DNA of 24,929 nucleotides from a virus. The notes under the pieces are model-generated. The model ran no database searches. It saw only the letters and a list, made by a program, of their open reading frames with translations, and was not told the DNA's origin. Shown here in pieces: positions 3,605 to 19,464 of the stretch. Positions within the stretch are counted from its first letter, which is position 1, and each line of letters starts with the position of its first letter. The position numbers and the translations under genes are program-made. Location of the stretch: positions 1 to 24,929 of IMG/VR virus record IMGVR_UViG_3300032117_001639; one strand, written 5' to 3'.

Positions 3605-3632
3605 ATTATACTTGAAATAAGGACTTTTGCAA
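3605..3632 (-). promoter_or_regulatory. Sigma-70-like promoter for membrane/coil gene
   Basis: Minus-strand TTGCAA (3632-3627) and TATAAT (3610-3605) are 16 nt apart. The predicted start falls at about 3598, the A of the ATG, implying a leaderless or nearly leaderless message. The -35 box occupies the loop of the terminator hairpin of the preceding gene. Confidence 0.55.
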
Positions 3633-3642
3633 GTCCTTATTT
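3615..3642 (-). terminator. Rho-independent, possibly bidirectional terminator
   Basis: AAATAAGGACTT and AAGTCCTTATTT form perfect 12-bp arms around a 4-nt TTGC loop, 12 nt past the stop of the structural gene at 3654. The A-rich and T-rich outer thirds act as U-tracts on either strand, with a GGACTT core stem. Confidence 0.8.
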
Positions 3643-3653
3643 GTTCAATTATT

Positions 3654-4343
3654 TTATAGCGGAGTTCCTGCTAGAGTTGTTCCAGCTAATTGCGATGTTG
3701 ATACGTTAGCATAAATTTGTGCTGGCGTAGCTGGTTGAGTAATAGTAACTTTAACTTGTGAGTCACCAGTTTGAGCTGGATTCCAAACACGATAAGTTTT
3801 ATACCATCCTGTTGTTCCACCAGTTGCAATAGCAGTGGTAACAATATCTGTAATTGCCAATGCTGTTGTGTTAATAGCAGTACCAGTAGAATTCAAACTA
3901 TTGTAGGCTGTGTAAACTGTACCATCGCTGTTAGTAAATGTACCGTTAGCTGATGAACTTTGGCTAGCTAGATATTTGTTCCATTCGCCTAGAACAAACG
4001 CATCACGGTCAAATTCTACAGTGAAAACAACTTGTGTATTTTGTGCAGTAGCATCAGTACCGTTTGTTGCACCAGTAACAACTACGTCTAAAATACGGCA
4101 ATCTGCTATGCCTGAAAGTGCTTCTACAACACGTTCCCAACGCAAGTTTCCTTGTGCTAGAAGTAACGCTTGTGCGGCGCTCATGCTACTGGTATTAGTA
4201 TAGTTTGAACTATCCCAATCATATGGGTTTACGCCGCCGCCAGCTGTTCCAGTGGTTGCAAAGTTTGTATTAGTATTAACAGTAACTTGGTAAATTCCCT
4301 GAGTTAACTGATTCTTATCTTGTTGGTATCCTGATCCGGCCAT
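3654..4343 (-). CDS. Probable virion structural protein
   Basis: A 229-residue protein rich in Thr, Ala, Asn, Gly and Ser with few charged residues, typical of beta-rich capsid or tail proteins. The N-terminus is MAGSGYQQDKN; the middle contains WERVVEALSGIADCRILDVVVTG and a segment FTVEFDRDAFVLGEWNKYL. I do not recognise a family. It has a good Shine-Dalgarno (CAGGAG), an upstream TAAATA motif (GCTAAATA on the minus strand, 4375-4368) and a strong terminator just past the stop. Together these make a one-gene late unit, which fits a protein needed in many copies. Its composition resembles that of the 160-residue protein at 23015-23497. Confidence 0.75.
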   Translation of the reverse strand: MAGSGYQQDKNQLTQGIYQVTVNTNTNFATTGTAGGGVNPYDWDSSNYTNTSSMSAAQALLLAQGNLRWERVVEALSGIADCRILDVVVTGATNGTDATAQNTQVVFTVEFDRDAFVLGEWNKYLASQSSSANGTFTNSDGTVYTAYNSLNSTGTAINTTALAITDIVTTAIATGGTTGWYKTYRVWNPAQTGDSQVKVTITQPATPAQIYANVSTSQLAGTTLAGTPL

Positions 4344-4381
4344 TTTGCCTACTCCTGTTTATAGTATATTTAGCCCTTGGA

Positions 4382-4729
4382 TTACTTAAACACAATTAAA
4401 GCAAGTAGTCCGGCTTGGCAAAAGAACCCAAAACCAATGGTTACAATGTTCAGAAAATCCTTCTGAATTGCGGCCTTGATAAAAAAGCAAAATAATCCTG
4501 CCCAGCTAAACAACACCAAATCCACTGGAGGCATTTTTTCAGTTAATCCTGTTAAAACTGCCAACTCTGTAGGAATCGTAGCTAGGTGTAGCAGGATCAC
4601 TGCTACCCAGCCCATTGTTTCTGCACTTACATGCGGAGCATGGGTTTTGATGTTTTCAACTAGTTTGTCTAGATCGAAAAAACTAGAAAGATTTGATTTA
4701 AATTTTGAAAAAACTTCGTTTGATATCAT
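4382..4729 (-). CDS. Small three-helix membrane protein, holin candidate
   Basis: A 115-residue protein with an amphipathic N-terminal 40 residues, then three hydrophobic segments: about 41-62 (WVAVILLHLATIPTELAVLTG), 68-88 (VDLVLFSWAGLFCFFIKAA) and 91-114 (FLNIVTIGFGFFCQAGLLALIVF). It starts 8 nt after the SleB-type hydrolase stop, with an AAGGA ribosome site. Position and topology suggest a holin that would pore the inner membrane and time lysis. This is inferred from context only; no holin family signature is visible. Another role in the inner membrane is possible. Confidence 0.7.
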   Translation of the reverse strand: MISNEVFSKFKSNLSSFFDLDKLVENIKTHAPHVSAETMGWVAVILLHLATIPTELAVLTGLTEKMPPVDLVLFSWAGLFCFFIKAAIQKDFLNIVTIGFGFFCQAGLLALIVFK

Positions 4730-4737
4730 AGTTGTCC

Positions 4738-5268
4738 TTAGTTGTAAAAAATGTGATGACCAATCTTAGCTACGGGTTTTTTATTCCAGCCAGGCTGGAT
4801 ATAATCTCCATGAAAGTATAGGGCGTTTTTCAAATCTGGAAGACGGAATCCTTCCAATAATACTTTCTTTGCTACTTCCATACTTTCTGTGTACATTGCA
4901 TCATTCATTGGCTTCAATGCACTAGGTCCTTCACAATACCAACTAAATTGGCACATGACCTTTTCATAGACTACATTTTTTTGGTAGACTACTTTACAAA
5001 TATCAGATGGGAATTGTCCACTTTCTGTTCTGTTAATTGTTACTTGAGCTACAGCTACTTTACCTTCAAAAGGTTCACTGCCTGCTTCATGGTATATATT
5101 ACGAGCTAGACAATCTAATTGCTGTTGTCTCATTTGTGCTGTAATAGGGCTTGCCGAATCTCGGGCTTGTTTTAAATGTTCAAATTTCTTTGAAACTGCG
5201 AATTGTGCTAGTGCTAGCACACTTATCGCTACTGCTAGATTTACTAAAATTTTGATAATGCGTATCAT
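4738..5268 (-). CDS. SleB-type cell-wall hydrolase (endolysin candidate) with N-terminal signal-anchor
   Basis: A 176-residue protein. Residues 1-25 hold a hydrophobic helix after MIRIIK, acting as signal peptide or signal-anchor. The Hydrolase_2/SleB domain follows: CLARNIYHEAGSEP with likely catalytic Glu at 61, EGKVAVAQVTINR, FPSDICKVVYQ, CQFSWYCEG, and ALYFH near the end. The family cleaves peptidoglycan glycan strands. The hydrophobic, Ala-rich helix would deliver it through Sec, as in SAR endolysins. The ATG at 5268 is chosen because AAAGGAG precedes it. The frame stays open to a GTG at 5433 that also has an AGGAG, giving a 231-residue version. However, a late-promoter-like octamer GATAAATA (5441-5434) directly precedes that GTG, so late transcripts would begin past it. 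A three-helix protein follows. Confidence 0.9.
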   Translation of the reverse strand: MIRIIKILVNLAVAISVLALAQFAVSKKFEHLKQARDSASPITAQMRQQQLDCLARNIYHEAGSEPFEGKVAVAQVTINRTESGQFPSDICKVVYQKNVVYEKVMCQFSWYCEGPSALKPMNDAMYTESMEVAKKVLLEGFRLPDLKNALYFHGDYIQPGWNKKPVAKIGHHIFYN

Positions 5269-5357
5269 TTTTTTCTCCTTTACGCTGGATGAGGTGTCGC
5301 TACCACCGTCATGGTTATTTTGGCTGTCGATATGTCTCCTATAAAAATTAGCCTTGC

Positions 5358-5375
5358 CCACTAAACTTTTAGTGG
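5358..5375 (-). promoter_or_regulatory. Hairpin in the long leader of the hydrolase gene
   Basis: CCACTAA and TTAGTGG form a 7-bp stem with a 4-nt loop, about 90 nt upstream of the preferred hydrolase ATG. It lies in the 160-nt leader expected from the GATAAATA octamer at 5441-5434. Role unknown; it may affect leader stability or translation. Confidence 0.4.
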
Positions 5376-5436
5376 ACAATATATAGTTATCCTCTGACGA
5401 CGAGGGTAATATACTATTATTATGATCGGGCACTAT

Positions 5437-5829
5437 TTATCTCCTCATTCTAGAGATATCTACTGCCTCTTCATCACTAAAAACCGGCACTGCGTTGCTT
5501 TTATGCATGGTCGCGATGCCTTTTACCTTGATACCGGTATAAACTTTGGCTGGTGCTAGCGTTGCGTTGCCGCCGCCGGTATCTTTGCTCTTAATATGAG
5601 CAGTTGTATTGCGCCCTTCTGGGATTTTCAAACTGTAACTCGAGCCCAAACTTTCGGCTGTCATTGCACGTTTGCGTTTCTTTTCTTCGAGTTCAAGACC
5701 TTGGCGTTTAAGTAGTTCTTTCCAGCTTTCTTCCAACTGTTCTGCCTTTCTTTTAGCTTCGGCACTTGCCCATTTCTTTTTGCCTTTCTTTTTGCCAGTA
5801 GTTGATAGCCACGGACCTTCTAGATGCAT
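5437..5829 (-). CDS. Hypothetical basic protein, Lys-rich N-terminal half
   Basis: About 130 residues: HLEGPWLSTTGKKKGKKKWAS at the start, a highly charged helical stretch (AEAKRKAEQLEESWKELLKRQ) to about residue 60, then a less ordered half ending EEAVDISRMRR. I recognise no domain. The Lys-rich start suggests nucleic-acid contact or a virion role, which is inference. Start choice is uncertain: the ATG at 5829 is 13 nt from TGGAG, while a TTG at 5835 is 7 nt away and better spaced. A full-consensus sigma-70 promoter lies 40 nt upstream. Its 3' end overlaps the ribosome site of the alternative GTG start of the hydrolase. Confidence 0.8.
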   Translation of the reverse strand: MHLEGPWLSTTGKKKGKKKWASAEAKRKAEQLEESWKELLKRQGLELEEKKRKRAMTAESLGSSYSLKIPEGRNTTAHIKSKDTGGGNATLAPAKVYTGIKVKGIATMHKSNAVPVFSDEEAVDISRMRR

Positions 5830-5867
5830 ACTCAAAATAAATCTCCAAAAGTTATAACAATACAGCT

Positions 5868-5896
5868 ATTATACAGTCACTTTTGGGAAATGTCAA
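5868..5896 (-). promoter_or_regulatory. Consensus sigma-70 promoter
   Basis: Minus-strand TTGACA (5896-5891), 17 nt, TATAAT (5873-5868): a full consensus match with ideal spacing. The -35 box overlaps the last codon and stop of iscA. It would drive the basic protein at 5437-5829 and perhaps the lysis genes below. Confidence 0.85.
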
Positions 5897-6219
5897 ACTC
5901 TAAAGGACTCGCCGCATCCACAGCGATCTCTTTCATTAGGATTTTGGAAATCAAACCCTTCATTAAGTCCATTGCGGACCCAGTCCATTGTTAGGCCATT
6001 TAGATATGGCTCATCTTTTAAACTTACTAGCACACAAAAATCGCCCTGTGCGTAGTTTACAACCCCTTCTTCGGCTTCATACTTATCCACATATTCTAGT
6101 ACGTAAGCAAGCCCGCTACATCCGGTAGTTCTTACACCTATGCGAATACCAACACCCTTGCCTCTTTTGGCAAGATTTTGTTTAATTTTAGCTTGCGCTG
6201 TGTCTGTTACGATAATCAT
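5893..6219 (-). CDS. iscA: A-type iron-sulfur carrier IscA
   Basis: A 108-residue HesB/IscA protein. The three conserved cysteines are present: C34 in RTTGCSG, and C100 and C102 in CGCGESF, which bind iron or an Fe-S cluster for delivery to apo-enzymes. GLNEGFDFQNPN precedes the CGC motif as in E. coli IscA, and length is normal. The ATG at 6219 (MIIVTD) matches the family start and has AAGG 9 nt upstream; an earlier in-frame start would add seven unconserved residues. It overlaps iscU by 32 nt, keeping the bacterial iscU-iscA order. No IscS, HscB or ferredoxin gene is in the window, so sulfur must come from the host or from phage genes elsewhere. Confidence 0.95.
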   Translation of the reverse strand: MIIVTDTAQAKIKQNLAKRGKGVGIRIGVRTTGCSGLAYVLEYVDKYEAEEGVVNYAQGDFCVLVSLKDEPYLNGLTMDWVRNGLNEGFDFQNPNERDRCGCGESFRV

Positions 6220-6571
6220 CGATAGCGGCCTTAATGGCATCCTCTGCTAGAATTGAACAATGTATCTTTACTGGCGGGAGAGCAAGTTCTTCAGCGATTT
6301 CGCTATTTTTGATACTACCTGCTTCGTCCAGTGTTTTTCCTTTGACCCACTCTGTAACGAGTGAACTAGAAGCGATTGCGGAACCACATCCGTATGTCTT
6401 GAAACGAGCATCTCTAATAATACCATTTTCTACCTTTATTTGTAATTTCATTACGTCACCGCAAGCTGGTGCACCGACCATGCCTGTGCCTATGCTAGGA
6501 TCGTTTTTATCAAAAGATCCTACGTTACGAGGATTTTCGTAGTGGTCAATAACTTTGTCTGAATATGCCAT
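6188..6571 (-). CDS. iscU: Iron-sulfur cluster scaffold IscU
   Basis: A complete 127-residue IscU scaffold, on which [2Fe-2S] clusters are built from IscS-derived sulfur. Ligand cysteines C37 (PACGDV), C62 (YGCGSA) and C105 (KIHCS), the stabilising D39, and H104 are all intact. So is LPPVK (98-102), the motif bound by the specialised Hsp70 HscA. The sequence is very close to proteobacterial IscU, which argues for transfer from a host. A TAGGAG ribosome site precedes the ATG. A TTGCGA-N17-TATAAT element lies just upstream (6610-6582), but its start point would fall after the ribosome site, so read-through from upstream is more likely. The gene is followed directly by iscA. Confidence 0.97.
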   Translation of the reverse strand: MAYSDKVIDHYENPRNVGSFDKNDPSIGTGMVGAPACGDVMKLQIKVENGIIRDARFKTYGCGSAIASSSLVTEWVKGKTLDEAGSIKNSEIAEELALPPVKIHCSILAEDAIKAAIDDYRNRHSAS

Positions 6572-6598
6572 ATATGCTCCTATTATACATTATTTACG

Positions 6599-7633
6599 CT
6601 ACTTTCGCAAGTAGGAATTATTATAGTTTTCAAATAAAAACATCCAATATGGATCTAGTGCTGAAAAATTACTAATACGTTTTGGTTTATTTTTAGCGTA
6701 GTGTGTTTCGCCAAACAGTTCATCTAACACTTCACGCATTTGCCAACGATGGGTGTTAGGATCTCCTTTGACTTTTGTAAAGGGTTCTTTGGTACTGATT
6801 GCCCAAATTTGAAAATCTTCTGTATCAAAGAATCCCAGTATATTTTTAGCAGTCGCTGGATCTATGTGCGTTCTATGTTCGTAAAGTGCAGTATACCAGT
6901 CTAGATTAAAGATACAGTACCAACGTAAGTCGGCTACAGTTTCAATTGGACGAGGACTAGATTTGATAACCGGATCTAAGAATTCTAACAGGGCAGGATC
7001 AATATTAGTTTTGTAATCTTCGTATATTGTTTCAGGAGTTCCTAATGTGTGATGAAACATGGCAGTATTGCCATTTGCAAAGAAATCATCGGTAGGTCCA
7101 AACAATTGATTACCGCACATTCCGCTTACATAGATTCCGTCAAATTCTTTAAAATTAAACTGATTGCTAGATGCAACTTTAATATTGTATTTGAATTCTT
7201 TACTAATCCTGCGATCAAACAGATCTCCGGATTCTATAATGCTGTTATATGTTCCGTAAACTCTAACTTGGTCTGGATCATTTGCATATTTTTGTAACAT
7301 GAAAAGTATAAACGTACTATCTAGACCGCCACTCCACATTACATTAATAGGCTGTCCTAATGCTAACAATTCTTTAGCACGTTGTTCTGCTATTTCAAAA
7401 AAACTACGATTGTAGTTGTCTTGTCTTGCAGGAATTGGATGTAACTGACTAATATTAAGATAATGTGGTAATGAACATGTTCTATCATAAATCATGTTAT
7501 GTGTATTCAATCCAAATCGTTCATACTTGTTGAACAACTCAGGAGAGTAATATTTAGATAGAAAATGCTGTAGCTGTCTTGGATTCTGTTTTAAATAGGT
7601 AGAAACGGCATGTGTATTATAATACAGAATCAT
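6599..7633 (-). CDS. Asparagine-synthase-like ATP pyrophosphatase (PP-loop), no glutaminase domain
   Basis: A 344-residue protein with the N-type ATP pyrophosphatase P-loop SGGLDST at 101-107, preceded by the strand PINVMW, and a second motif VSGMCGNQLFG near residues 166-176 in the place of the GDGGDELFGG-type loop of asparagine synthases. These enzymes adenylate a carboxylate or similar group before attack by ammonia or another nucleophile. The N-terminal 80 residues do not start with Cys and show no class II glutaminase features, so ammonia or an amine from another source would be used. QueC and thiouridylase signatures (paired CxxC) are absent. Real substrate unknown. It starts 8 nt after the solute-binding-protein gene stop. 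Confidence 0.75.
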   Translation of the reverse strand: MILYYNTHAVSTYLKQNPRQLQHFLSKYYSPELFNKYERFGLNTHNMIYDRTCSLPHYLNISQLHPIPARQDNYNRSFFEIAEQRAKELLALGQPINVMWSGGLDSTFILFMLQKYANDPDQVRVYGTYNSIIESGDLFDRRISKEFKYNIKVASSNQFNFKEFDGIYVSGMCGNQLFGPTDDFFANGNTAMFHHTLGTPETIYEDYKTNIDPALLEFLDPVIKSSPRPIETVADLRWYCIFNLDWYTALYEHRTHIDPATAKNILGFFDTEDFQIWAISTKEPFTKVKGDPNTHRWQMREVLDELFGETHYAKNKPKRISNFSALDPYWMFLFENYNNSYLRK

Positions 7634-7641
7634 CTACAACC

Positions 7642-8586
7642 TTAGTGCTTTTTGATTTGTTCTACAAGTCCAGGAGTAAAATAATCGGCAAATTTTGTAT
7701 AAACAACTTGTGTAGCATCAGCAAAACGCTGTTGCTCTTCAGTTGACATACGAATAACTTCAATACCGTCTGCTTCTGCACGAGCTTGTGTTTGTAAAAC
7801 ATCATCAATGCTGATGCTACGCTCGTAACGTGCCGCGGCTTGAGCTGATTCACTTACTACTTGTTGTAGTTCTGGACTTAGTGTATTCCAGAATTCACTA
7901 CCAACTAGAATGCTTGTTAGGAACAAGCTGTGTTCTGTGTGGTTAATATAATTGCTTACGCCTGCTTGGTTAAGTGCATAGATACGTGGATATGTACTTT
8001 CACCAATAGCAACATTTGCCTTACCTAAGTTTTCTGTAAGTTCTTCTAATTCCATTGGAACTACATCAGCACCTAATGTCTTGAATGTTTCAATCGCTAC
8101 TGGACTAAAACTTGTACGTAGTTTTACACCACGCAAGTCCTCAATTTTGCTAACTGGTTCGTTTCCTGGAATAATACGGAAACCGCCTGAGTATGTAAAT
8201 GCTAAACCTTTGATCTTTTTAGATTCTTGCAAGCTATCCAATAGCTGTTTACCAACTGCACCTTCGAACACACGAGTAGCATGGTCGTGATCTTTAAATA
8301 AGAATGGTAAATCTAATGCGAAGAAATCTTTGTTGATCTTACCCAATGTGATTGTGTAAGTTTGGCTCATTTCAATTAGGCCGTTGTCTAACAAATCTAC
8401 TAGACTATGCTTGTCAACTACAACACCGTTGTTATACTTTTCTGAGTATTCGCTCATAGTCATAACTTCGATATCTAATGCACCAGGTGCTCTTGCATTT
8501 ACTTCACCGGCAAATACCTTTGCGGCACGAATAAACAATTCGATTGGTTCGTGTGCTAAAACCCATTTTACGTGCTTAGTTGTCAT
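7642..8586 (-). CDS. TRAP-transporter (DctP-like) solute-binding protein without signal peptide
   Basis: A 314-residue DctP-family protein. Visible family features are ALDLPFLFKDHDHATRVFEG, KGLAFTYSGGFRIIPG, the signature block EDLRGVKLRTSFSPVAIETFKTLGADVVPM near 150-175 (Arg in KLRT usually salt-bridges a substrate carboxylate), and NYINHTEHSLF. Bacterial homologues are periplasmic and pass organic acids to DctQM permeases. This one begins MTTKHVKWVLAHEP with no hydrophobic leader, and no permease genes accompany it, so a cytoplasmic binding or decoy role must be considered. The ATG at 8586 has GGAG 8 nt upstream. It overlaps the preceding gene by 11 nt. Confidence 0.9.
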   Translation of the reverse strand: MTTKHVKWVLAHEPIELFIRAAKVFAGEVNARAPGALDIEVMTMSEYSEKYNNGVVVDKHSLVDLLDNGLIEMSQTYTITLGKINKDFFALDLPFLFKDHDHATRVFEGAVGKQLLDSLQESKKIKGLAFTYSGGFRIIPGNEPVSKIEDLRGVKLRTSFSPVAIETFKTLGADVVPMELEELTENLGKANVAIGESTYPRIYALNQAGVSNYINHTEHSLFLTSILVGSEFWNTLSPELQQVVSESAQAAARYERSISIDDVLQTQARAEADGIEVIRMSTEEQQRFADATQVVYTKFADYFTPGLVEQIKKH

Positions 8587-8857
8587 AATCAAAACTCCAG
8601 ATTTCTTTGTGGTTAACAATATCTATTTCCCGCTTCATTACGGGTACTTGCTTATTTATCAGTTCTCTAATGACTGTTTCGCTAGGTATTGCATCCTTAT
8701 TTATAATGCAAGAAACGGGTATCAATAAGTTTCGATACCCGTATTCCCGGACGTTTGAATCGTAATAAAAGTAATCTTTTATAGTGTAAAGATTACGGTC
8801 TTTTCCGCTTTGTGGGAATTCATTGATTTCAATGAGATATTCATTAAGAAACGACAT
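8576..8857 (-). CDS. Hypothetical protein
   Basis: A 93-residue protein starting MSFLNEYLIEINEF, rich in aromatic and acidic residues (LYTIKDYFYYDSN, EIWSFDYDN), with no motif I recognise. The ATG at 8857 overlaps the end of the DUF2061-like gene and its purine-rich AAGGAAG is very close to the start. An in-frame upstream start adds eight basic residues and looks unlikely. It is translationally linked to both neighbours: a 14-nt overlap upstream and an 11-nt overlap with the solute-binding-protein gene downstream. Confidence 0.7.
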   Translation of the reverse strand: MSFLNEYLIEINEFPQSGKDRNLYTIKDYFYYDSNVREYGYRNLLIPVSCIINKDAIPSETVIRELINKQVPVMKREIDIVNHKEIWSFDYDN

Positions 8858-9074
8858 CTTCCTTGACCTGCTTGCCAGCATCTATTTTATTCCATACTCT
8901 TTCATGGAAGTAGTATAATACGCTGTTAACCACTAGTGCAAAACTAACAACTCCGAGCCCTACCCAAGGATTACCACTAGCAATCCACCCACCAAAGAAA
9001 TTAGTAATTGTTACTAGAATTCTCCAGGTAACTACTTTGCCTAGGCTACGTGCGGCACGTTCGTAAAATTTCAT
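8844..9074 (-). CDS. DUF2061-family small membrane protein
   Basis: A 76-residue protein matching the DUF2061 pattern: an RAARSLGKVVTWRI start, two short hydrophobic segments (about 15-35 and 40-58) and the closing LYYFHERVWNKI. It would be an inner-membrane protein with both ends probably cytoplasmic. The family has no established function and occurs widely in bacteria and in some marine viruses. It starts 8 nt after the exported-protein gene stop with AAGGATAC as ribosome site. Confidence 0.85.
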   Translation of the reverse strand: MKFYERAARSLGKVVTWRILVTITNFFGGWIASGNPWVGLGVVSFALVVNSVLYYFHERVWNKIDAGKQVKEDVVS

Positions 9075-9082
9075 TTGTATCC

Positions 9083-9385
9083 TTAATTAGGCACTAATGC
9101 ACTTCTGTAGCAATTACAGTTAGCATCTAGGATTGCTTCCCAATGGTAACCATATGGTGCTTGTGGTGGAACAACTTGTGGCGCAGGGTAAACTGGCTGA
9201 GGCTGTACTACTACAACATCGGGCTGTCTCGGTCGAGCTAGCTCGTATCCAATTACTCCTCCAACAATACTAGGAACTACCCAACCGTATCCTGGACGAT
9301 AAACATAATGTCCTCCGCCGTGATGCCATTGGGCTTGTGCCAATGATGCGAAAGATAATAATATGATTGCTAAAACTTTTTTCAT
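9083..9385 (-). CDS. Small exported Pro/Val-rich protein
   Basis: A 100-residue protein with a clear Sec signal peptide: MKKVLAIILLSF, then ASLAQAQ with a likely cut after AQA near residue 19. The mature part starts WHHGGGHYVYRPGYGW, has a Gly-rich hydrophobic patch (IVGGVIGYELA) and a Pro/Val/Gln-rich centre, and ends with a Cys-x-Cys pair (NCNCYRS). There is no lipobox, so it is probably periplasmic. Similar short secreted His/Gly/Pro-rich proteins occur in Proteobacteria, suggesting host origin. A strong AAGGAG precedes the ATG. Envelope modification during infection is a guess. Confidence 0.75.
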   Translation of the reverse strand: MKKVLAIILLSFASLAQAQWHHGGGHYVYRPGYGWVVPSIVGGVIGYELARPRQPDVVVVQPQPVYPAPQVVPPQAPYGYHWEAILDANCNCYRSALVPN

Positions 9386-9395
9386 TTTATTCTCC

Positions 9396-10451
9396 TTATT
9401 CTTTAATTATTGCACAAACACTATAATGAATTGTTAGTACTGGAAAACTAAGGCTTAAACCAAACACTTTAAGTATTGCATCAATTAGCTTGATGAATTG
9501 TGCTATGAGTAAACCTAAGAAGTTAATACAAAATAATTTCATATCGCCTAATAACTGACTAAGATCTTTCCATGCCGAATCAACAAATGGATTAAATGGA
9601 AATTCCCAGTCAAATGGTTTGCCGAATGGTGACAATGTGAAATTTTTAAGATATGCTAATATTTCTTCTGCTGTAACTACTGCTTTGTTCAAGGCCGCTT
9701 TTACAAAATCTACAATAGCATCTTGGATTGCTTTTATTGTTGGACCGCCTAATGCAATAAGCGCAACAATCTCTTCTCCGATTGCCGATAAAGCCGTGTT
9801 CCATATTGTGCTCAATGGTGGAGGGAAAGTGCCAGGGCTAGTGATGTAATCATATGCCGCTAATCCTGTTTTAATTGCATCAAAAATTAATTTTATTTTT
9901 TGTAACAATGCAGACCACAAACTTACCATTACATTTTTAACGATATTAGCAATATCAATTTGAGGAGCTTCAGAGCCACCCCAAGTTTCAAATGGAATTC
10001 CTAAAAAATTTAATAAAGACTTCAGGTCATCGATTGCAGTATGGTACAAGTTTGTAATTGCTGTAAGAAGTTTTTCATACAAGTTGTCACTAAACAAGTC
10101 ACTTACGGTTAAATTTAAAATAGGTAACGATAAATCTAAATCTAATAATTTACCAACAACTGCTTCTAACGCCTTAAGTAATGCATTTAACAATTGCCAT
10201 ATAGGTTCTAGATAACTTTTCATTATATAATTGTAAAGTCTAGATATAGCGTCTTTGATTTGAGCGTAAGTATCGATAATACCCGAGTTAGCACAACTCA
10301 TTCCCATAAATTCAAAACTAATACCAGTTACTGTGTATTCTTTTCCGTCAGGCAACGAACTGTAAACTGTATTAAACAATCCTTGCATTGTAAAGGCTTT
10401 GTTTAAGTCTACAGTCGTTGTAGCAGGAATGGATACAACATTAACAGTCAT
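9396..10451 (-). CDS. Hypothetical large amphipathic helical protein
   Basis: A 351-residue protein with a short beta-rich N-terminus containing SFEFMGMSCANSG (about 46-58), then a long series of Leu/Ile-rich amphipathic helices from about 60 to the end, broken by Pro-rich turns such as SPGTFPPPLSTIW and NPFVDSAW. Charges are sparse and several stretches are hydrophobic enough to contact membrane. No domain is recognised. It begins 1 nt after the Hc1-like stop with no ribosome site of its own, so it is coupled to it. Possible virion or injected protein, or a membrane-active protein; undecided. Confidence 0.7.
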   Translation of the reverse strand: MTVNVVSIPATTTVDLNKAFTMQGLFNTVYSSLPDGKEYTVTGISFEFMGMSCANSGIIDTYAQIKDAISRLYNYIMKSYLEPIWQLLNALLKALEAVVGKLLDLDLSLPILNLTVSDLFSDNLYEKLLTAITNLYHTAIDDLKSLLNFLGIPFETWGGSEAPQIDIANIVKNVMVSLWSALLQKIKLIFDAIKTGLAAYDYITSPGTFPPPLSTIWNTALSAIGEEIVALIALGGPTIKAIQDAIVDFVKAALNKAVVTAEEILAYLKNFTLSPFGKPFDWEFPFNPFVDSAWKDLSQLLGDMKLFCINFLGLLIAQFIKLIDAILKVFGLSLSFPVLTIHYSVCAIIKE

Positions 10452-10452
10452 A

Positions 10453-10641
10453 TTACTTTGATTCTTTACGAGCGTTCTTAACTGCTGTTACATCGTTGCG
10501 TGTTTCTTTGCACAACTTTGCAAGTTCTTGCAAGTGTTTACGAACACGAGTACCTGCGGCACTAACACCTTTGTCGTAAAACTTTTCGAAGTCACCTTCC
10601 ATTGTTTCTACTAATTTTGTAAATTCTGCGTATTTTGACAT
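10453..10641 (-). CDS. Histone H1-like (Hc1-type) DNA-binding protein
   Basis: A 62-residue basic helical protein: MSKYAEFTKLVETMEGDFEKFYDKG, then AAGTRVRKHLQEL and RNDVTAVKNARKESK. The pattern matches the conserved helical part of Hc1-like bacterial histones, with (K)AAGTRVRK as its best mark, though the Lys/Ala tail of chlamydial Hc1 is absent. Such proteins bind and compact DNA. In a phage it could coat host or viral DNA, or be packaged. It has a strong AAGGAG site and is followed 1 nt later by the 351-residue gene. Confidence 0.75.
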   Translation of the reverse strand: MSKYAEFTKLVETMEGDFEKFYDKGVSAAGTRVRKHLQELAKLCKETRNDVTAVKNARKESK

Positions 10642-10651
10642 ATAATTCTCC

Positions 10652-10942
10652 TTATGCTAGTTTAATGCCGGTTGTTTGTTGGATGTATGTATCTGCGGCA
10701 TCTTTAATAGTTGCGGCCAATACCATAATGCTATTTTTGTTAATTGTAACATCTGCATCTGGATCTGTAGTAAACAAAAATGGCACTAGTCCAATTCCAT
10801 CCTTAGTAGCTGTTAAGCACAATGGCTTTTTAACCTTGACACCGAGTGGGCCATCTTCTACTAACTTAGCAACAATCTCTTCACCTGCTGTGGTTTTGAT
10901 TGTTACAATTTCACCTTCTGCTATACCTTTTGAAATTAACAT
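10652..10942 (-). CDS. Hypothetical beta-barrel protein, Sm/LSm-like candidate
   Basis: A 96-residue protein whose first half, GEIVTIKTTAGEEIVAKLVED followed by GVKVKKPLCL, reads like the Sm1 strands of an Sm/LSm barrel (function-to-strand pattern hxhxxxxGxxhxGxh). A later NSIMVLAATI resembles the closing strand. An Sm-like structure of putative cyanophage origin has been described, which makes this plausible, but no sequence identity can be claimed here. An RNA-binding ring would be the expected role. It follows the glutaredoxin gene by 1 nt with AAAAGG as ribosome site. Confidence 0.6.
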   Translation of the reverse strand: MLISKGIAEGEIVTIKTTAGEEIVAKLVEDGPLGVKVKKPLCLTATKDGIGLVPFLFTTDPDADVTINKNSIMVLAATIKDAADTYIQQTTGIKLA

Positions 10943-10943
10943 A

Positions 10944-11171
10944 TTATACCTTTTCGAAATGTTTCTTGAGTTCTGTGAACCCGCCTATTAATTTATCGTC
11001 TAAAAAGATTTGCGGTACAGTTCTGGCATTAGGTACTGCTTCCAATAATTGTTCACGTGTATAATCTTTGTTAATGTTTCTTTCTTCGTATTCAATGCCT
11101 TTCATTTTGAGCAAGCCCTTAGCTTGGTCACAAAATGGGCAGGCGTTTTTACTCCATACTATTGCTTTCAT
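10944..11171 (-). CDS. grx: Glutaredoxin (dithiol)
   Basis: A 75-residue thioredoxin-fold protein. Redox motif CPFC (C11, C14), cis-proline motif TVPQIF near residue 52, and the glutathione-binding GGF followed by ELKKHFE are all in place. Dithiol glutaredoxins reduce ribonucleotide reductase using glutathione, matching its position directly downstream of nrdB. T4 and many T4-like phages keep a glutaredoxin (nrdC) for this. Ribosome site AAAAGGA. The CPFC motif argues against a monothiol (CGFS) Fe-S-carrying glutaredoxin. Confidence 0.93.
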   Translation of the reverse strand: MKAIVWSKNACPFCDQAKGLLKMKGIEYEERNINKDYTREQLLEAVPNARTVPQIFLDDKLIGGFTELKKHFEKV

Positions 11172-11188
11172 ATTATTCCTTTTTACTA

Positions 11189-12289
11189 TTATAAACTAGG
11201 TAACGCATCATAATCAAGTATTTCTGACATGACGCCGATAACATAGTTAGTCGATTCTGATTCTTGTAGAGCAGTTTGTTTACTGCTAGTATTAACGTGT
11301 TTGTTAAACCAAGGAATTGGAGTTGACTTTGGAGCGGCTTGTTGATATTTGATACCAATATCTTTGAGTGCGCTGACTGCTGTGTAGTCTACAAAGTCTT
11401 TTAGAATGTTTGCGTTCAATCCAATAACTGGTCCTTTTTGGAACAAGTAATCTGCCCATTGTTTTTCTTCACGGATAACATCCATATACAATGCATAGAC
11501 TTCTTGTTCGCACTCTAACTTAGCTTCAGCAAAACGTGGATCTTCTTTAACCACTTGGTTGATCAAATAAGCTGTCCAACCTTTGTGTAGTAATTCATCT
11601 TGTAAAATCAAACTGATAATGTTACCATTACCGATAAAGATTTTATTCTCAACCATTGCTAGGCTTGTAGCAAATGATACCATAAAGCGGAAAGCTTCTA
11701 GAGCATAGCTAGCATTAAGAGCTAACCAAATAGCCTTAACATGTTCACGCTCGTCAAGGAACGAACCCATTTGTTTCATGCTATTACAAATGTGTAATGT
11801 TTCGTAGTAGTTGCCTACATTTGATGCCATATTAATAATTTCTTGTGTGTCGTGGATTGTGTTGAACACATCCTTTGGCACATTATAGATATTACGAATT
11901 ATATGGCTGTAGCTCTTACTGTGGATGTTGGTTTCGAAGAAACCCCAGTTGTACATGAGAGCTTCAAGTTCGGGCAAGGAACACACTGGAGTAAATACCT
12001 GCGTTGGTCCACGACCTTGAAGACTATCAAGTGCTGTTTGACGTAATAAATTGCTAGTAAAAATATGTTTAACTGCATCGCTTGCATCCTTAAAATCATT
12101 TGCGTCTTTGGTAAGACTAATCTCTTCGGGTTGCCAGAAGAAGCCTCGGGCTGTCGCTTCAAAGTCTGCAATCTTTTTGTACTTGACTTCTTCAAAACGT
12201 TGGATGGTAACTGGGCCCGCTGGATCCAAAAACATCTTACGTGAAAGATAGTCTGTCTTTGTATTTAAGTTATATTGTTCTTTACTCAT
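11189..12289 (-). CDS. nrdB: Class Ia ribonucleotide reductase beta subunit
   Basis: A 366-residue R2 protein that houses the diiron-tyrosyl radical. Equivalents of the E. coli ligands are visible: D84 in LDSLQGR, E115 and H118 in FFETNIHSKSY, E204 in ALEAFRF, E238 and H241 in QDELLH, plus the radical tyrosine (HSKSY). One oddity: an Asn is inserted between E115 and H118, giving E-x3-H rather than E-x2-H. The C-terminal tail (VIGVMSEILDYDALPSL) resembles the peptide that docks on NrdA. The start ATG shares its A with the TAA of the aldolase (TAATG), so translation is coupled. No Shine-Dalgarno is needed or obvious. Confidence 0.97.
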   Translation of the reverse strand: MSKEQYNLNTKTDYLSRKMFLDPAGPVTIQRFEEVKYKKIADFEATARGFFWQPEEISLTKDANDFKDASDAVKHIFTSNLLRQTALDSLQGRGPTQVFTPVCSLPELEALMYNWGFFETNIHSKSYSHIIRNIYNVPKDVFNTIHDTQEIINMASNVGNYYETLHICNSMKQMGSFLDEREHVKAIWLALNASYALEAFRFMVSFATSLAMVENKIFIGNGNIISLILQDELLHKGWTAYLINQVVKEDPRFAEAKLECEQEVYALYMDVIREEKQWADYLFQKGPVIGLNANILKDFVDYTAVSALKDIGIKYQQAAPKSTPIPWFNKHVNTSSKQTALQESESTNYVIGVMSEILDYDALPSL

Positions 12290-12909
12290 TAATATTTTCC
12301 TGATGCAAGTACTATCTTGCAAATATGTTCTAATCGTTCAATGTGTTCATAGGCACGCCATGGGCTAGTATCAATAGCAACTACTCCATGCCCTTTGATG
12401 CCTACAATGTCATAGGCAATGTTTCCATTGTCATCTAATTCTAATTTTTCAAAACACTGGTCGGCTAGTTCTTGACTAATAGGAGGAACTTCAGGTACAT
12501 TGGGTGCTACTCGAGTATAACGACTAAGTTCTGGAAAGTCATTAACCACAGTACTTAAATCAATACCGGCATGCATGGCCGCTACACAATATGTAGGGTG
12601 TACATGTACAACAACACGAACTTCGTCACTATGCTGACCCATTGCTCTTTGTAGACCAAAGTGTAATGGAATCTCTCCACTAGGCTTTAGATTTGCACTG
12701 ATATCTGTATAGTGTTCTTCTTGCCACAATAAACCATGTATGCTGATTTTCTTAAATTGGTCTGGCTGTAGAGTTTGTTTGCGTACTCCACTAGGTGTGA
12801 TATAAAAATGATCACGATCGTGATGTCGTATGCTTACATTACCATCACGACTGGTAATCCAATTACGCTTATATGCGTCTACAAGTATATCACAAATAGT
12901 TTCTAACAT
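12289..12909 (-). CDS. Class II aldolase/adducin-family protein
   Basis: A 206-residue zinc-dependent aldolase-fold protein. It has the phosphate-binding GNVSIR (24-29) and TPSGVRK, then PSGEIPLHFGLQ with the likely catalytic Glu, zinc ligands HVHP and GHG, and a final EHIERLEHI. These match L-fuculose-1-phosphate aldolase, RhaD, AraD and MtnB relatives, which cleave or isomerise sugar phosphates. The exact substrate cannot be told. All key residues appear intact. It sits between nrdA and nrdB with TAATG overlaps on both sides, so it is made in step with ribonucleotide reductase. A role in supplying or removing a pentose or methylthioribose phosphate is speculation. Confidence 0.9.
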   Translation of the reverse strand: MLETICDILVDAYKRNWITSRDGNVSIRHHDRDHFYITPSGVRKQTLQPDQFKKISIHGLLWQEEHYTDISANLKPSGEIPLHFGLQRAMGQHSDEVRVVVHVHPTYCVAAMHAGIDLSTVVNDFPELSRYTRVAPNVPEVPPISQELADQCFEKLELDDNGNIAYDIVGIKGHGVVAIDTSPWRAYEHIERLEHICKIVLASGKY

Positions 12910-15233
12910 TATAACTTACATGCCTCGCAATCTTCTTCATCCATCGGTTGCTCAATGTATGTTTGTGCAACTGCTACAACTTCATCAGTTGCTTTACTTC
13001 CTGCTTTGTTAATCAAACTGTAGTAGAATGTTTTTAATCCCCATACATGTGCTTGCATCAAATTCTTAGCAATCAGCGTAGTTGGAACTTTACGTCCTTC
13101 AAAGTGCGCTGGATTATAGAATGTGTTTGTACTAATTGATTGGTCAACGTAGGCCGCAAGCACAGCCGCTGTCTTCAAATAGCCATCACAATCTGTTTGG
13201 TCCCACATGAGTTGATACTTGTGTTTCAATTTATGATACTCAGGAACAACTTGTGTAAAACTTCCTGCCTTTGATTCTTTAGTGCTGATTAGACTCATAG
13301 GCATTTCAATTCCATTAGTGCTGTTTATAACAACACTACTGCTTTCAACTGGTGCAATGGCCATTAGTGTACCGTTGCGAACTCCATACTGTTTCATATT
13401 AGTACGTAGTGTTTCCCAATCAAGTTCTGGAGCAAAATTTGCTAGTTCATTTACACCTTTAGCACGTAACTCCCAAGGGAATACACCTTGGCCATAGCGT
13501 GTCTTATCACTATGTGTACACGCTCCGCGCTCCTTTGCCAGTTCCACTGTAGCTTCAGTAAGGTAAAAGGCTTGATGTTCCATCCAGGATTTAACATCTT
13601 GTAAGGCGTCTTTCTCGCCATATTTAAGACCACGTTTTGCATGCCAGTAGGCCAAGTTTGTAACCCCAATCCCTAAAGGTTGGATTTCGTCATTGCTTAG
13701 TTTACTTTGAATACTTAGAAAATCTTGGTAATCAAGAATATTGCAAAGGCTACGTTGAAGAATGCGGCAAGCACGACGCATGTCTTCAGGATTTCTAAAA
13801 GCACCCCAATTGATACTACCAAGAGTACACAAAGCAATTCGACCATTCTCGTCATCAAGACGTTTAAAAGATTTTGTAGGTAATAGAATTTCACAGCAAA
13901 GATTACTTTGGTAAATTGTATGATACTCAGGATCAAATGGTCCTTGGTTCATTACGTTATCGATAAACACAAGATAGATACGTCCTGTGTCTGTACGTTC
14001 TTTTAGTATGCCAGACTTGAATACTTCTTCAGCAGTCATAGTCTTCTTACGTAAGTCTGTACGCTTTTCATATTTTACATACAGTTCTTCAAAACGTTCT
14101 GTGTTTTTATAAAATGCTTCGTATAAGTCTGGCACTTCGTTAGGATCAAAGAATGTTATGTTTTCTTTATTTTTAAATCGGCGCCAAAAGAACGCAGACA
14201 ATACAACACCATAGTCCATATGGCGGACGCGAGTTTCTTCCGTTCCTTGATTATTTTTAAGCACAATAAGATCATCAAACTGATGATGCCAGATAGGGTA
14301 AAAAACTGTAGCACTAGCATTACGAATGCCTCCTTGTGAACAACTTCTTAAATCTCCAAACCATTTCTTCAAGAATGGAATCATACCTGTGTGCATGATC
14401 TCCCCACCTCTGATGGGACTACCTAATGGACGTAGACGACCAATTTCCAAACCAATGCCAGCACGTTTGCTAGCATATTTTGCCATCATCTCTCCTGAAG
14501 CGAAAATACTATCAAGGTCATCATCACTACGGATGAGTACACAGGAACTGAACTGTTTAGTGGGAGTGCCAAGACCAGCAAGAACTGGAGTAGCGAGAGT
14601 AAACAAAGCATCACTGGCGGCGTTATAATACTCTTTAATATAACGCATTCTTGCATTATTTGGTTCTTCCTTATGGAAGACTGTAGCCGCGGCCACAATG
14701 TATCTAATCTGAGGCGTTTCATAAGTTTGTTTCGTTGCCCTATTTTTAACAAGGTACTTCTCAATTAACTGCTCGATTGCCGCATATGAATATGTTTCGT
14801 CTTTTTCATGATCTAACATATCATTCATTTTGTTCCAGTCTTCTTCTGTGTACCACACAAGAAGTTCTGGTGTGTATAATCCTATTTCCACATTCTTTTT
14901 TACAATAGAATATAAATGTGGAACTTCGTATTGTCCATAAACATCTTTGCGGAGGATGCTTAGTCTTTGTTTGCCTGCTACGTATTGATAGTTTGTATGT
15001 CCTACATCTGGATTCTGTTCTACGTCGATAAGGTCAACGATTGCTCGTAATGTAATGTTATCAATTTCGTTTGTAGTAATGCCATCGTAGAAATGAGGTT
15101 GGCTTTTGATTTCAATCATAGACTGACTGACATCTGCTATGCCTTTACAAACCTTCGCTACCTGAGCCTGCCACTTTTCAATCATTAGTGGCTCTTTACT
15201 TCCATCTCGTTTCGTTACTATAATTTTGCTCAT
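12909..15233 (-). CDS. nrdA: Class Ia ribonucleotide reductase alpha subunit
   Basis: A complete 774-residue R1 protein that reduces ribonucleoside diphosphates to deoxy forms for phage DNA synthesis. An intact N-terminal ATP-cone (about 1-90, VTKRDGSKEPLMIEKW) implies dATP feedback control, unlike many phage enzymes that lose it. Active-site residues present: Cys of FSSCVL, NLCCE (Asn, Cys, Glu), Cys of ALCTLGS, the tyrosine pair in TFYYSLINKAG, and the C-terminal shuttle pair in DCEACKL. The gene opens the nrdA-aldolase-nrdB-grx operon. Its ribosome site is weak (AAAGTAACGACA). The upstream leader holds TATAATAAATAC (15287-15276), which could serve as a -10 box or a late-type octamer. Confidence 0.98.
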   Translation of the reverse strand: MSKIIVTKRDGSKEPLMIEKWQAQVAKVCKGIADVSQSMIEIKSQPHFYDGITTNEIDNITLRAIVDLIDVEQNPDVGHTNYQYVAGKQRLSILRKDVYGQYEVPHLYSIVKKNVEIGLYTPELLVWYTEEDWNKMNDMLDHEKDETYSYAAIEQLIEKYLVKNRATKQTYETPQIRYIVAAATVFHKEEPNNARMRYIKEYYNAASDALFTLATPVLAGLGTPTKQFSSCVLIRSDDDLDSIFASGEMMAKYASKRAGIGLEIGRLRPLGSPIRGGEIMHTGMIPFLKKWFGDLRSCSQGGIRNASATVFYPIWHHQFDDLIVLKNNQGTEETRVRHMDYGVVLSAFFWRRFKNKENITFFDPNEVPDLYEAFYKNTERFEELYVKYEKRTDLRKKTMTAEEVFKSGILKERTDTGRIYLVFIDNVMNQGPFDPEYHTIYQSNLCCEILLPTKSFKRLDDENGRIALCTLGSINWGAFRNPEDMRRACRILQRSLCNILDYQDFLSIQSKLSNDEIQPLGIGVTNLAYWHAKRGLKYGEKDALQDVKSWMEHQAFYLTEATVELAKERGACTHSDKTRYGQGVFPWELRAKGVNELANFAPELDWETLRTNMKQYGVRNGTLMAIAPVESSSVVINSTNGIEMPMSLISTKESKAGSFTQVVPEYHKLKHKYQLMWDQTDCDGYLKTAAVLAAYVDQSISTNTFYNPAHFEGRKVPTTLIAKNLMQAHVWGLKTFYYSLINKAGSKATDEVVAVAQTYIEQPMDEEDCEACKL

Positions 15234-15275
15234 TGTCGTTACTTTATGTTGTGCGGTGTGTATTTCTCTTAGGAA

Positions 15276-15287
15276 GTATTTATTATA
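15276..15287 (-). promoter_or_regulatory. Possible nrd promoter element
   Basis: Minus-strand TATAATAAATAC, 43 nt upstream of nrdA. TATAAT could be a -10 box, but no good -35 lies 17 nt away. AATAAATA is two changes at most from the T4 late octamer. It is the only promoter-like element seen in the 169-nt gap before nrdA. Confidence 0.35.
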
Positions 15288-15346
15288 GAAAACTTCGGTC
15301 TCAAAACTTATTGAAACTCAAAAGGTTGCGGAGGCAGAAATACTTT

Positions 15347-17317: not shown

Positions 17318-17345
17318 TAAATATCCTCTATATAGGATATTTATC
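17318..17345 (-). promoter_or_regulatory. Late-promoter-like octamer within a hairpin that hides the tail-fibre ribosome site
   Basis: TAAATATCCT and AGGATATTTA are perfect 10-bp arms with a 6-nt loop (17318-17327, 17334-17343). On the minus strand the right arm contains the AGG of the tail-fibre Shine-Dalgarno (17328-17325). The left arm overlaps GATAAATA (17345-17338), one change from the T4 late octamer TATAAATA. Late initiation about 6 nt downstream would remove the left arm and expose the ribosome site. Confidence 0.65.
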
Positions 17346-18063
17346 AGTTATACTTGTAGTACCGTTCTACTCTATCCCACCATTTGGCTTCCCAATGGGC
17401 AAAATCTTCGGGTTTTAAGATAAATTCCTGATATTTGGGTTCTTCTACAACAACTAGCTGTTCGTTCATCTTAGGGCTTACACACATTAAAACAACACCT
17501 TTTCTAATGTTGCTTCCATAGACTTTATTGTGTGCTAGTGCATAGGCAGTTAGTTGTAGATAATAATCTTCAATCCACTCTTCTTTTTTAGGCTTGTTAG
17601 TTTGTTTGTAGTCTAAGATTGCTTCTTCATTAAGATGTAATCCGCATCCATCAGTAGTTCCCGCATATAATCCGGGATAATACAATGGCACTTCAACACC
17701 CCAAATTTCGTTAACATTAGACAACCCCTGAGCAATTACAGTTTGCGCCATTATGTGGCTTTGCTTGCTGTAAGGGTTAGTACCTGGAGGAGTGATTGCA
17801 CCAGTCTTAACATAGTCCTCTAAGAACTTATGCATTCTAGTTCCACGTCCAGCCGCTTCAGTTACAATTTCCTGTGCCTTAGCTTCACCTACACGTTTCT
17901 TCCAGTTGTTAAGTGCGTCAATTTTATCTTGAGATTTTGTTTTGTCCAATATCGTTGTAACGCTTGGAACTTTAGATCCGTCAGGCAAAGCATATAACCG
18001 CTTGCCTGCTTCACTTTTTCTATCTATTGGAGTATAGACAAACTTTTCTTTGAGTAGAGTCAT
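17344..18063 (-). CDS. PD-(D/E)XK nuclease (RecB/MGME1-like exonuclease)
   Basis: A 239-residue nuclease of the PD-(D/E)XK superfamily. The core is seen as GTRMHKFLED (about 70-80), TDGCG (the D of motif II), AILDYKQT (the D-x-K of motif III) and EDYYLQLTAYALAH, the QxxxY-type motif of RecB-like and MGME1-like enzymes. Such proteins cut single-stranded DNA ends and, in marine T4-like phages, are thought to act in recombination or DNA processing. The ATG at 18063 is preferred; an in-frame GTG 15 nt earlier is possible, and neither has a clear ribosome site. The stop codon overlaps the late-type octamer of the tail fibre gene. Confidence 0.85.
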   Translation of the reverse strand: MTLLKEKFVYTPIDRKSEAGKRLYALPDGSKVPSVTTILDKTKSQDKIDALNNWKKRVGEAKAQEIVTEAAGRGTRMHKFLEDYVKTGAITPPGTNPYSKQSHIMAQTVIAQGLSNVNEIWGVEVPLYYPGLYAGTTDGCGLHLNEEAILDYKQTNKPKKEEWIEDYYLQLTAYALAHNKVYGSNIRKGVVLMCVSPKMNEQLVVVEEPKYQEFILKPEDFAHWEAKWWDRVERYYKYN

Positions 18064-18088
18064 AGAGCTAGTATACACTAACTAATGA

Positions 18089-18391
18089 TTATCCCATAGC
18101 CTTTTGAGTAGCACGTTTTGCCATTTGGCTTAATTCGCCTTCGCCTTCCCCGCCTTGTTGCTGATGCTTTTCTTTAGTATCGGTATTGAGTGTAATACCG
18201 TCAGCACCGTAACGAGTTACTAAGGCATGTAATGTATCGGAGTCTTGTTGTGCTACTGGATCGTTTTGGTTAGTTGGCTCAAATCGAGATTTAAAACGTT
18301 GGTAGTCGATTTCTGGAGCGCCATATCTGCGTCCTAGTTGATTAACTGCTTCCCAGCTAATTGTTTCTGAATTGCCTTGGCGGTCGGCCAT
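18089..18391 (-). CDS. Hypothetical protein, possible -1-frame continuation of the upstream gene
   Basis: A 100-residue hydrophilic protein (MADRQGNSETISWEAVNQLGRRYG ... LSQMAKRATQKAMG) rich in Gln, Asp and Glu, with no recognised domain. It may be translated independently from the ATG at 18391, with AAAGGA about 10 nt upstream, but that site is inside a 12-bp hairpin. Its frame is the -1 frame of the 341-residue upstream gene and is open without a stop back through ISESADPLVLALKDLKA to the A10 run at 18442-18451. A shift there would fuse the two into one protein of about 458 residues. Both possibilities are open. Confidence 0.75.
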   Translation of the reverse strand: MADRQGNSETISWEAVNQLGRRYGAPEIDYQRFKSRFEPTNQNDPVAQQDSDTLHALVTRYGADGITLNTDTKEKHQQQGGEGEGELSQMAKRATQKAMG

Positions 18392-18398
18392 GGCTTTA

Positions 18399-18428
18399 AG
18401 ATCCTTTAGTGCTAAGACTAAAGGATCT
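18399..18428 (-). promoter_or_regulatory. 12-bp stem-loop between A10 run and downstream gene
   Basis: AGATCCTTTAGT and ACTAAAGGATCT are perfect arms with a 6-nt loop. The stem starts 13 nt past the A10 run. On the minus strand its right arm contains AAAGGA, the only ribosome site for the 100-residue downstream gene. It could stimulate frameshifting, or enforce translational coupling by hiding that site. Confidence 0.75.
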
Positions 18429-18438
18429 GCACTCTCAC

Positions 18439-19464
18439 TTATTTTTTTTTTGATGCGGCTAGCAACATACCTAAGCGACGGCTATAGTCAATGCTTTCAC
18501 GCTTTTCACGACCTTCTTCACCACCTGGCATTGGACCTGCTTCTGGAGCACCTTCTTCACCACCTGGCATTGGAGGCATTTCACCACCAGCCATGTCTGG
18601 AGCACCTTCTTCACCACCTGGCATTGGAGGCATTTCACCACCTTCTGGCTCGCCCATCATTGTGCCTTGTTTGCCTGCTACTAATGCAAAACCTTGATTT
18701 AGGCCTCTACGTGCTTGCTCTAATGCTGTGTAAACTGCTTCTAATGATGGTTTAACGGATTGGTCGTACTTTTGTGCAACATCACTACCGTAGTGTTCTC
18801 CTATGGAGTCCATTAACTCTAATAGCTGTTCAGCTTTCATAGCGGCTACATCTTCTAACCAACCCGTAATACGGTCGATCATATCTTTAGTTGCCATGAT
18901 TACTTCAGCTTTTTCTTCTTCGCCTTCTGCAAGATACACAATGCGATGTGCAACTGCTTCTGATAAATCATAGCGTAGTTTTAATTCTGCTTTTAATTCT
19001 GCCTCGTCTGCTTCGCCTAGTGCAATACGATCGATAGCTGAGTTGATCCAACTTTCTGGAACGGAATGATCCATAGCCTTTTTACGGATTGTTGCAAAAT
19101 ATACACTCTTGCCTTTTTCTTTGCCGTATTGTTTTTCCATGTTTTTCTTCATTCCTGATTTGTCAGTCTTTTTCTTGATATTCTTTTCTTTAGCCTTATC
19201 TTGAGGAGTCATCTCACGTTCCAAAATTTCTTGATTAATGCAATCTAACATTAAACGTGTCTTTTGATAAGCAGGGCTTTCATTTACGCTGTCGAAACTT
19301 TCACCAAGTTCGAACTGGCTCATCTTTGTACGTAGTTTGTTTTGCACGTCACTTAACTGTTCCATAGTGAACTGTTCTAAGTTAAGTTTATAGCCAAACT
19401 GTTGTGCCAAGCTCTCGTTTAGTGCTTTAGCTGTAATTGGTTTCGATAATTCTCTTAATTGCAT
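18439..19464 (-). CDS. Probable virion-associated protein with GEEG/MPP repeats
   Basis: A 341-residue protein. The N-terminal half is charged and helical (MQLRELSKPITAKALNE; KEKNIKKKTDKSG around 95-120). The middle is acidic and helical. From about 270 there are near-identical Pro/Gly/Glu repeats (GGEMPPMPGGEEGAP), and the end is YSRRLGMLLAASKKK followed by TAA. No family is recognised. The perfect T4 late octamer TATAAATA lies 31 nt upstream, so it is probably a late, virion-related gene. The last three Lys codons and the stop sit on a run of ten A residues, where a -1 shift continues into the next gene. AGGG 8 nt before the ATG serves as ribosome site. Confidence 0.8.
   Translation of the reverse strand: MQLRELSKPITAKALNESLAQQFGYKLNLEQFTMEQLSDVQNKLRTKMSQFELGESFDSVNESPAYQKTRLMLDCINQEILEREMTPQDKAKEKNIKKKTDKSGMKKNMEKQYGKEKGKSVYFATIRKKAMDHSVPESWINSAIDRIALGEADEAELKAELKLRYDLSEAVAHRIVYLAEGEEEKAEVIMATKDMIDRITGWLEDVAAMKAEQLLELMDSIGEHYGSDVAQKYDQSVKPSLEAVYTALEQARRGLNQGFALVAGKQGTMMGEPEGGEMPPMPGGEEGAPDMAGGEMPPMPGGEEGAPEAGPMPGGEEGREKRESIDYSRRLGMLLAASKKK
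18442..18451 (-). other. A10 slippery run at the end of the 341-residue gene
   Basis: The minus strand reads TCA AAA AAA AAA TAA in the zero frame. A -1 slip on A AAA AAA bypasses the stop and enters ATA AGT GAG, open all the way through the next gene at 18391. A run of this length is also prone to transcriptional slippage and to sequencing undercalls. Confidence 0.6.
18511..18642 (-). repeat. Short direct repeats inside the coding region
   Basis: Two 44-nt copies (18545-18588 and 18599-18642) are identical and offset by 54 nt, and a shorter partial copy begins at 18511. They encode the GGEMPPMPGGEEGAP peptide repeat. Identity at the DNA level indicates recent duplication or ongoing copy-number change by slippage. 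Confidence 0.85.

Follow-up and report, generated by a model that had tools for sequence, protein, structure and literature searches.

A conserved run of adenines very probably directs programmed −1 recoding of a gene pair in large uncultivated phages

Organisation of the locus

The window, which is the whole stretch of 24,929 nt that was analysed (positions 1 to 24,929 of IMG/VR record IMGVR_UViG_3300032117_001639), harbours on its minus strand a gene (gene 1 or ORF1, 18439-19464) encoding a protein of 341 aa, the 3' end of which reads GCA TCA AAA AAA AAA TAA (TCA to TAA at 18453-18439). The run of ten A residues (18442-18451) is preceded by TC, stands in frame as TCA AAA AAA AAA and contains the heptamer A_AAA_AAA, and the 0-frame stop codon TAA (18439-18441) lies directly 3' of it. 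Read in the −1 frame, the sequence from the run on has no stop: it continues through ISESADPLVLALKDLKA and joins the ORF at 18391-18089. The complete −1 frame, designated ORF2, spans 117 codons plus stop (18089-18442, minus strand). The first-pass annotation of this DNA had reported both the gene ending on ten A residues and the open −1 frame leading into the gene at 18391. Both descriptions proved correct, and the −1 ORF is kept in all 94 distinct junction types read from relatives, as a conserved domain of ~100-136 aa.

The product of ORF1 exhibits a weak match to phrog_14154 ('virion structural protein', E 6.7e-9), as do 12 of 13 of its relatives compared with PHROGs. Its AlphaFold model is all-helical with residues 266-319 disordered, and the predicted order of elements towards the slip site is a disordered linker rich in P, G and E followed by a basic C-terminal helix ending in SKKK. 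A fold search with ORF1 returned only phage proteins without names. Small uncharacterised genes lie upstream of gene 1, and the downstream neighbour (17344-18078) is an exonuclease homologue (phrog_298, E 7.2e-50). The assignment of the gene pair as a tail-assembly chaperone was considered and rejected, since no tape measure gene is adjacent and a weak tape-measure-like match lies ~8 kb off. Among phage isolates, the only match to ORF1 was a partial one of 65 aa in Synechococcus phage S-T4, a divergent ORF1 used as query gave none, and no isolate was found to carry the gene pair. No family could be assigned to ORF2 by Pfam, PHROGs or tblastn against phage isolates, and no relative was found in GTDB genomes.

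Conservation of the slip site

At least 571 relatives of gene 1 were confirmed in a single scan of IMG/VR. The junction was read in 57 distinct types, then in a further 17, and in 20 more obtained with a deliberately distant query, giving 94 types with protein identity down to ~41%; these types share descent, and the counts given below are not independent events. Junctions were located by peptide patterns, most of them inside gene 1 and the rest inside ORF2, and none was chosen on the A-run.

In 93 of the 94 types a run of A9-A11 is situated at or just before the stop codon of gene 1, the single exception being A6-G (L323), and all 94 carry the heptamer A_AAA_AAR/C in the 0-frame phase. The commonest form among relatives is TC-A9-G (A_AAA_AAG). 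All 74 aligned relatives have A9 or A10 at the junction, whereas the flanks of the same 74 types, 430,516 bases on the same strand, contain 53 runs of A7, 13 of A8 and none of A9 or longer; the A-run at the end of gene 1 is therefore not due to chance. Codon choice around the run is equally restricted. At codon −4, 71 of the 74 types have TCA and three have CCA, although TCA accounts for 33% of the serine codons in these genes, and the lineages in which it has changed to CCA (L166, L187 and L189) have retained the third-base A. Codons −3 and −2 are AAA AAA throughout these 74 types and the stop is always TAA, with AAG (58), AAA (10) or AAC (6) as the last codon. AAG thus makes up 58 of the 68 lysine codons at this position, against a usage of 36%. 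Among the distant relatives, four (L341, L364, L339 and L367) carry TC- or CC-A9-G and terminate 1-7 codons further on, one (L326) carries an A11 run in a different phase, and in L323 the site reads only TCA AAA AAG; ORF2 stays in the −1 frame in all of them.

Relatives in which gene 1 and ORF2 are fused in a single frame were not found, and a search for relatives with the two genes separated or reordered, which had been named beforehand as an observation that would speak against fusion, revealed none. Phase variation by A-run length was discarded as the main reading, as neither the length of the run nor the relation of the frames varies between lineages.

The first-pass annotation had also raised the possibility of a homopolymer undercall, i.e. 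one long gene with a single base missing from the assembly. A-runs are indeed error-prone, and one more A would join the two frames. However, the same −1 offset recurs in 94 types from many assemblies, with runs as different as A9-G, A9-C, A10 and A11, and the junction of the window is found again in a separate contig with 0 mismatches over 10.8 kb. This constancy across differing run lengths, together with the exact recurrence, led us to reject the undercall, and the retention of A_AAA_AAG where the run is only A6 also argues against it; its probability is practically negligible.

ORF2 as a C-terminal extension

Purifying selection acts along the whole length of ORF2 (overall pN 0.25 vs pS 0.69). 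The codons that precede the ATG at 18389-18391, previously called the start of a separate gene 2, are constrained as well (pN 0.17 vs pS 0.37), with synonymous change lowered where the RNA hairpin described below sits. This ATG is not conserved. In 30 of the 74 types there is no ATG, GTG or TTG within the first 30 codons of ORF2, and in 54 of the 74 none precedes the beginning of helix 1.

The AlphaFold model of ORF2 (mean pLDDT 77.7; ~75-94 over residues 1-90) suggests one compact domain of four helices and short strands, followed by a disordered tail. The first helix is predicted to span residues 7-22, and a start at the ATG of the window, residue 18, would cut it. An Ig-like extension was ruled out, as the model is mainly helical and not a beta-sandwich. 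Fold searches of PDB and BFVD with ORF2 gave no significant match; the best VIA-align Z score, 4.8, was to winged-helix chains and falls within the range of common arrangements, so that the predicted fold may at most be called loosely winged-helix-like, no match being convincing.

These data bear directly on the coupling switch that had been proposed for the locus, according to which ribosomes that terminate at the TAA of gene 1 melt the hairpin and resume translation at the gene 2 ATG. In the window such an ATG is indeed present, preceded by the SD-like AAAGGATC within the hairpin arm, and TAATG occurs in L037 and L039. The ATG and the SD-like site are missing in most relatives, however, the constraint on the protein and its first predicted helix both start ahead of the ATG, and upstream the −1 frame invariably stays open as far as the A-run. 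Re-initiation is, hence, a very improbable explanation, and the proposal of a switch finds no support.

As judged by the comparison of relatives, ORF2 is coding from its first codon and is an extension of a protein rather than a gene of its own. In our view, the same comparison establishes that these phages use the −1 frame. The A-run is very probably a programmed −1 recoding site which gives rise to the gene 1 protein and a minor fusion, and the suggestion of a programmed fusion by −1 slippage, made from the window by itself, is now strongly supported across the 94 junction types.

An RNA hairpin downstream of the A-run

A conserved hairpin of 12 pairs (18399-18428, minus strand) lies within ORF2 and begins 13 nt after the end of the A-run. 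Its 3' arm contains AAAGGATC, the only SD-like sequence ahead of the ATG at 18391, just as the initial reading of the sequence had stated. Lineage by lineage, RNA stability was compared with that of synonymously recoded versions of the −1 frame and expressed as a z value. The 60 nt immediately past the slip site gave a mean z of −3.83, with 53 of the 57 types tested below −1.5, compared with values between −0.95 and +0.86 in the control windows (from 29 nt on, and in ORF1 120-300 nt upstream); the last ORF1 window (−72) gave −1.06. On the stem named above, 41 cells were changed on both sides in a compensatory manner vs 12.5 in shuffles, and sliding the pairing partner weakened this signal.

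The hairpin is not the same structure everywhere. L046/L063, L085, L096 and L141 have unrelated hairpins formed by other bases at other positions, and the distance from the run ranges from 3 to 30 nt, mostly 9-24 nt. It is 14 nt or less in ~34 of the 57 types, few of them having 5-9 nt; stimulators of frameshifting are usually spaced at 5-9 nt, and 3-14 nt is known (PMC5009743). RNAalifold found just four pairs on the ungapped alignment because lineages use different hairpins, and for this reason pairs were counted on the named structure and lineages were tested singly. A significant hairpin was not found in four lineages of the main set of 57 types, nor a strong one in the distant L341, L364 and L367, in which the stop lies 1-7 codons past the run.

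From the selection on pairing we take the hairpin to be a selected element of the gene 1/ORF2 junction, and it may act on slippage. It may instead have a separate job, such as mRNA processing, stability or slowing the polymerase, with no effect on slippage. The variable distance from the run is compatible with this, as are the second slip site of the window, which has no hairpin, and the three distant lineages just mentioned. On the other hand, hairpins are restricted to the first 60 nt downstream of the slip site even in lineages with non-homologous sequences there, as expected if they are tied to that site, and we regard the separate role as possible but do not favour it.

With L339 included, four lineages combine a stop 1-7 codons past the slip site with the lack of a strong hairpin, and stop-adjacent sites mostly have one. 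The presence of the hairpin and the adjacency of the stop are possibly linked.

A second slip site in the window

Another gene on the minus strand (416 aa, 2348-3598) also appears to be recoded. Near its 3' end it carries TC-A9-G (A_AAA_AAG; 2410-2399, with the A-run at 2400-2408), followed by a −1 extension of 42 codons within the window (2271-2399). The repeat of the A-run pattern at 2399-2408, pointed out in the first-pass annotation, is thus a genuine parallel site, but the run is A9 followed by G (2399) and not A10. The heptamer is present in 55 of 55 distinct intact sites and A_AAA_AAR is always in phase, the sequence being TC- or CC-A9-R in 50 and TCT-A8/A9 in five; the run is A8 in four of the 55. 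The 0 frame stops within ~18 codons after the site, and in most relatives the −1 extension comprises ~105-116 aa. In L192, L248 and L255 the fusion of the second gene is in frame, in two of them by one additional A. No hairpin was found after this site (mean z +1.14 against recodings).

Both slip sites are present in each of five large records (259-383 kb), and in one relative of 265 kb (G001) the only two occurrences of CA9 in the record are these two sites. The −1 extension ends in a TGA that overlaps the start codon of the following ORF (ATGA, 2271-2274), an arrangement suggesting that the second gene really ends in the −1 frame. In six lineages (L221, L231, L237, L239, L241 and L263) the entire C-terminal part of the 416-aa gene is swapped for an unrelated domain (MRGFGS..YKFNGN..WIEVDK) with no A-run. 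Pelagibacter phage Mosig encodes a distant relative of the second gene, the 3' end of which lacks an A-run of this type.

Ribosomal or transcriptional slippage

In the proposed mechanism, most translation of gene 1 would end at the TAA right after the run, yielding the 341-aa protein, and a minority would slip on the A-run into the −1 frame, producing a fusion of ~458 aa with the ORF2 domain. By the ribosomal route, tRNA-Lys would slip by −1 on A_AAA_AAR, and the hairpin would raise the efficiency of slippage where the stop immediately follows the slip codon. The outcome would be a phage protein in two forms, a core and a minor extended one, which by analogy resembles other phage recoding genes that set the ratio of two products. 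The occurrence of slippage, its rate and the machine that slips are inferred here.

Slippage of the ribosome on A_AAA_AAR is somewhat favoured over that of RNA polymerase. The heptamer and its phase persist even in lineages with runs of A6 or A8, the last codon is predominantly AAG, and downstream there is a conserved hairpin. A_AAA_AAG ranks with the most efficient −1 motifs of bacteria, and the sites of insertion sequences are dominated by it and A_AAA_AAA, followed by A_AAA_AAC (PMC4066793); the order of last codons observed here, AAG > AAA > AAC, is that of the insertion-sequence −1 elements. It is also known that ribosomes slide on AAA-AAA-AAG and AAA-AAA-AAA, and E. coli genes strongly avoid both (PMC4363877). 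Against the ribosomal route stand the spacing of the hairpin, which in most lineages exceeds the usual 5-9 nt, the second site with no hairpin, and the near-invariant A9 rather than A6-7, which suits polymerase slippage equally well.

Programmed transcriptional slippage, in which RNA polymerase adds one A (or 1+3n) on A9/A10 and the resulting mRNAs are translated normally into the fusion, deserves serious consideration, although we hold it to be the less probable route. A run of nine or more A residues in 93 of 94 types, with the degenerate base of codon −4 included, would be well explained by it, and so would the second site with the same motif and no RNA structure, the loose spacing of the hairpin, and the closure of the +1 frame within 2-7 codons after the slip site. 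Moreover, A9 is a documented length for efficient slippage of bacterial polymerase (PMC5009743), and the dnaX gene of T. thermophilus slips at nine A's (PMC3711429). Nevertheless, L323 has only A6-G at the first site and four lineages only A8 at the second, codon phase of the heptamer is kept at both genes, and AAG is in excess of its usage at the last codon. The downstream hairpin is not yet transcribed at the moment the polymerase slips, and E. coli RNA polymerase slips less on runs of A than on runs of T (PMC6260861). To the participation of both machines, or of some other process, we assign a small probability.

It is also conceivable, if rather unlikely, that the shared TC-A9-G sets the level of two unrelated fusions across a large group of phages, and that the balance between termination and slippage at the stop-coupled site is tuned by a hairpin lying past the usual ribosome-entry distance and not bound to the 5-9 nt rule.

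Relation to known recoding systems

The site most closely recalls several known cases and differs from each. With E. coli dnaX (A_AAA_AAG plus stem-loop) it shares the heptamer in most relatives, the −1 direction, the downstream hairpin and two products per gene, but here the run is A9-A10, the stop directly follows the slip codon, the hairpin lies farther off and at a variable distance, and the shifted product would be longer, not shorter. Transcriptional slippage in dnaX of Thermus thermophilus is alike in the nine A's and in reaching another frame through the run, whereas the present site has kept its codon phase and a downstream hairpin, and lineages with A6 and A8 occur. The lambda G/GT tail-assembly chaperone and its counterparts likewise consist of a phage gene with a main product and a −1 extended form, yet the present pair does not lie between tail tube and tape measure genes, its next gene is an exonuclease homologue, and gene 1 encodes a 341-aa protein predicted to be helical. 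A C-terminal domain is also added by a −1 shift in the capsid/tail proteins of T3 and A2, the extensions of which are Ig-like, in contrast to the mainly helical ORF2 prediction. The −1 sites of IS elements have A_AAA_AAG/A/C with the same order of frequency; here the gene is viral and there is no transposase.

The recoding is of a known kind in a gene of large phages that is undescribed in the open-licence literature, where no report of the gene pair was found. The gene pair is a very well-supported addition to the recoding of phages, found in large uncultivated ones (259-383 kb records) and lying beyond the classic cases of tail chaperones and capsids. Gene prediction programs split gene 1/ORF2 in two, or miss ORF2 where a start codon is absent. 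The natural variants (A6, A8, A9, A10 and A11; stop adjacent or not; hairpin or not) could serve to separate ribosomal from polymerase slippage, and the same variants could reveal the effect of the far-placed hairpin.

Elsewhere in the window, the minus strand of positions 1-15300 carries, as read from the translations, DnaK-like (Hsp70) and IscU/IscA-like genes in the same contig as ribonucleotide reductase and glutaredoxin-like genes.
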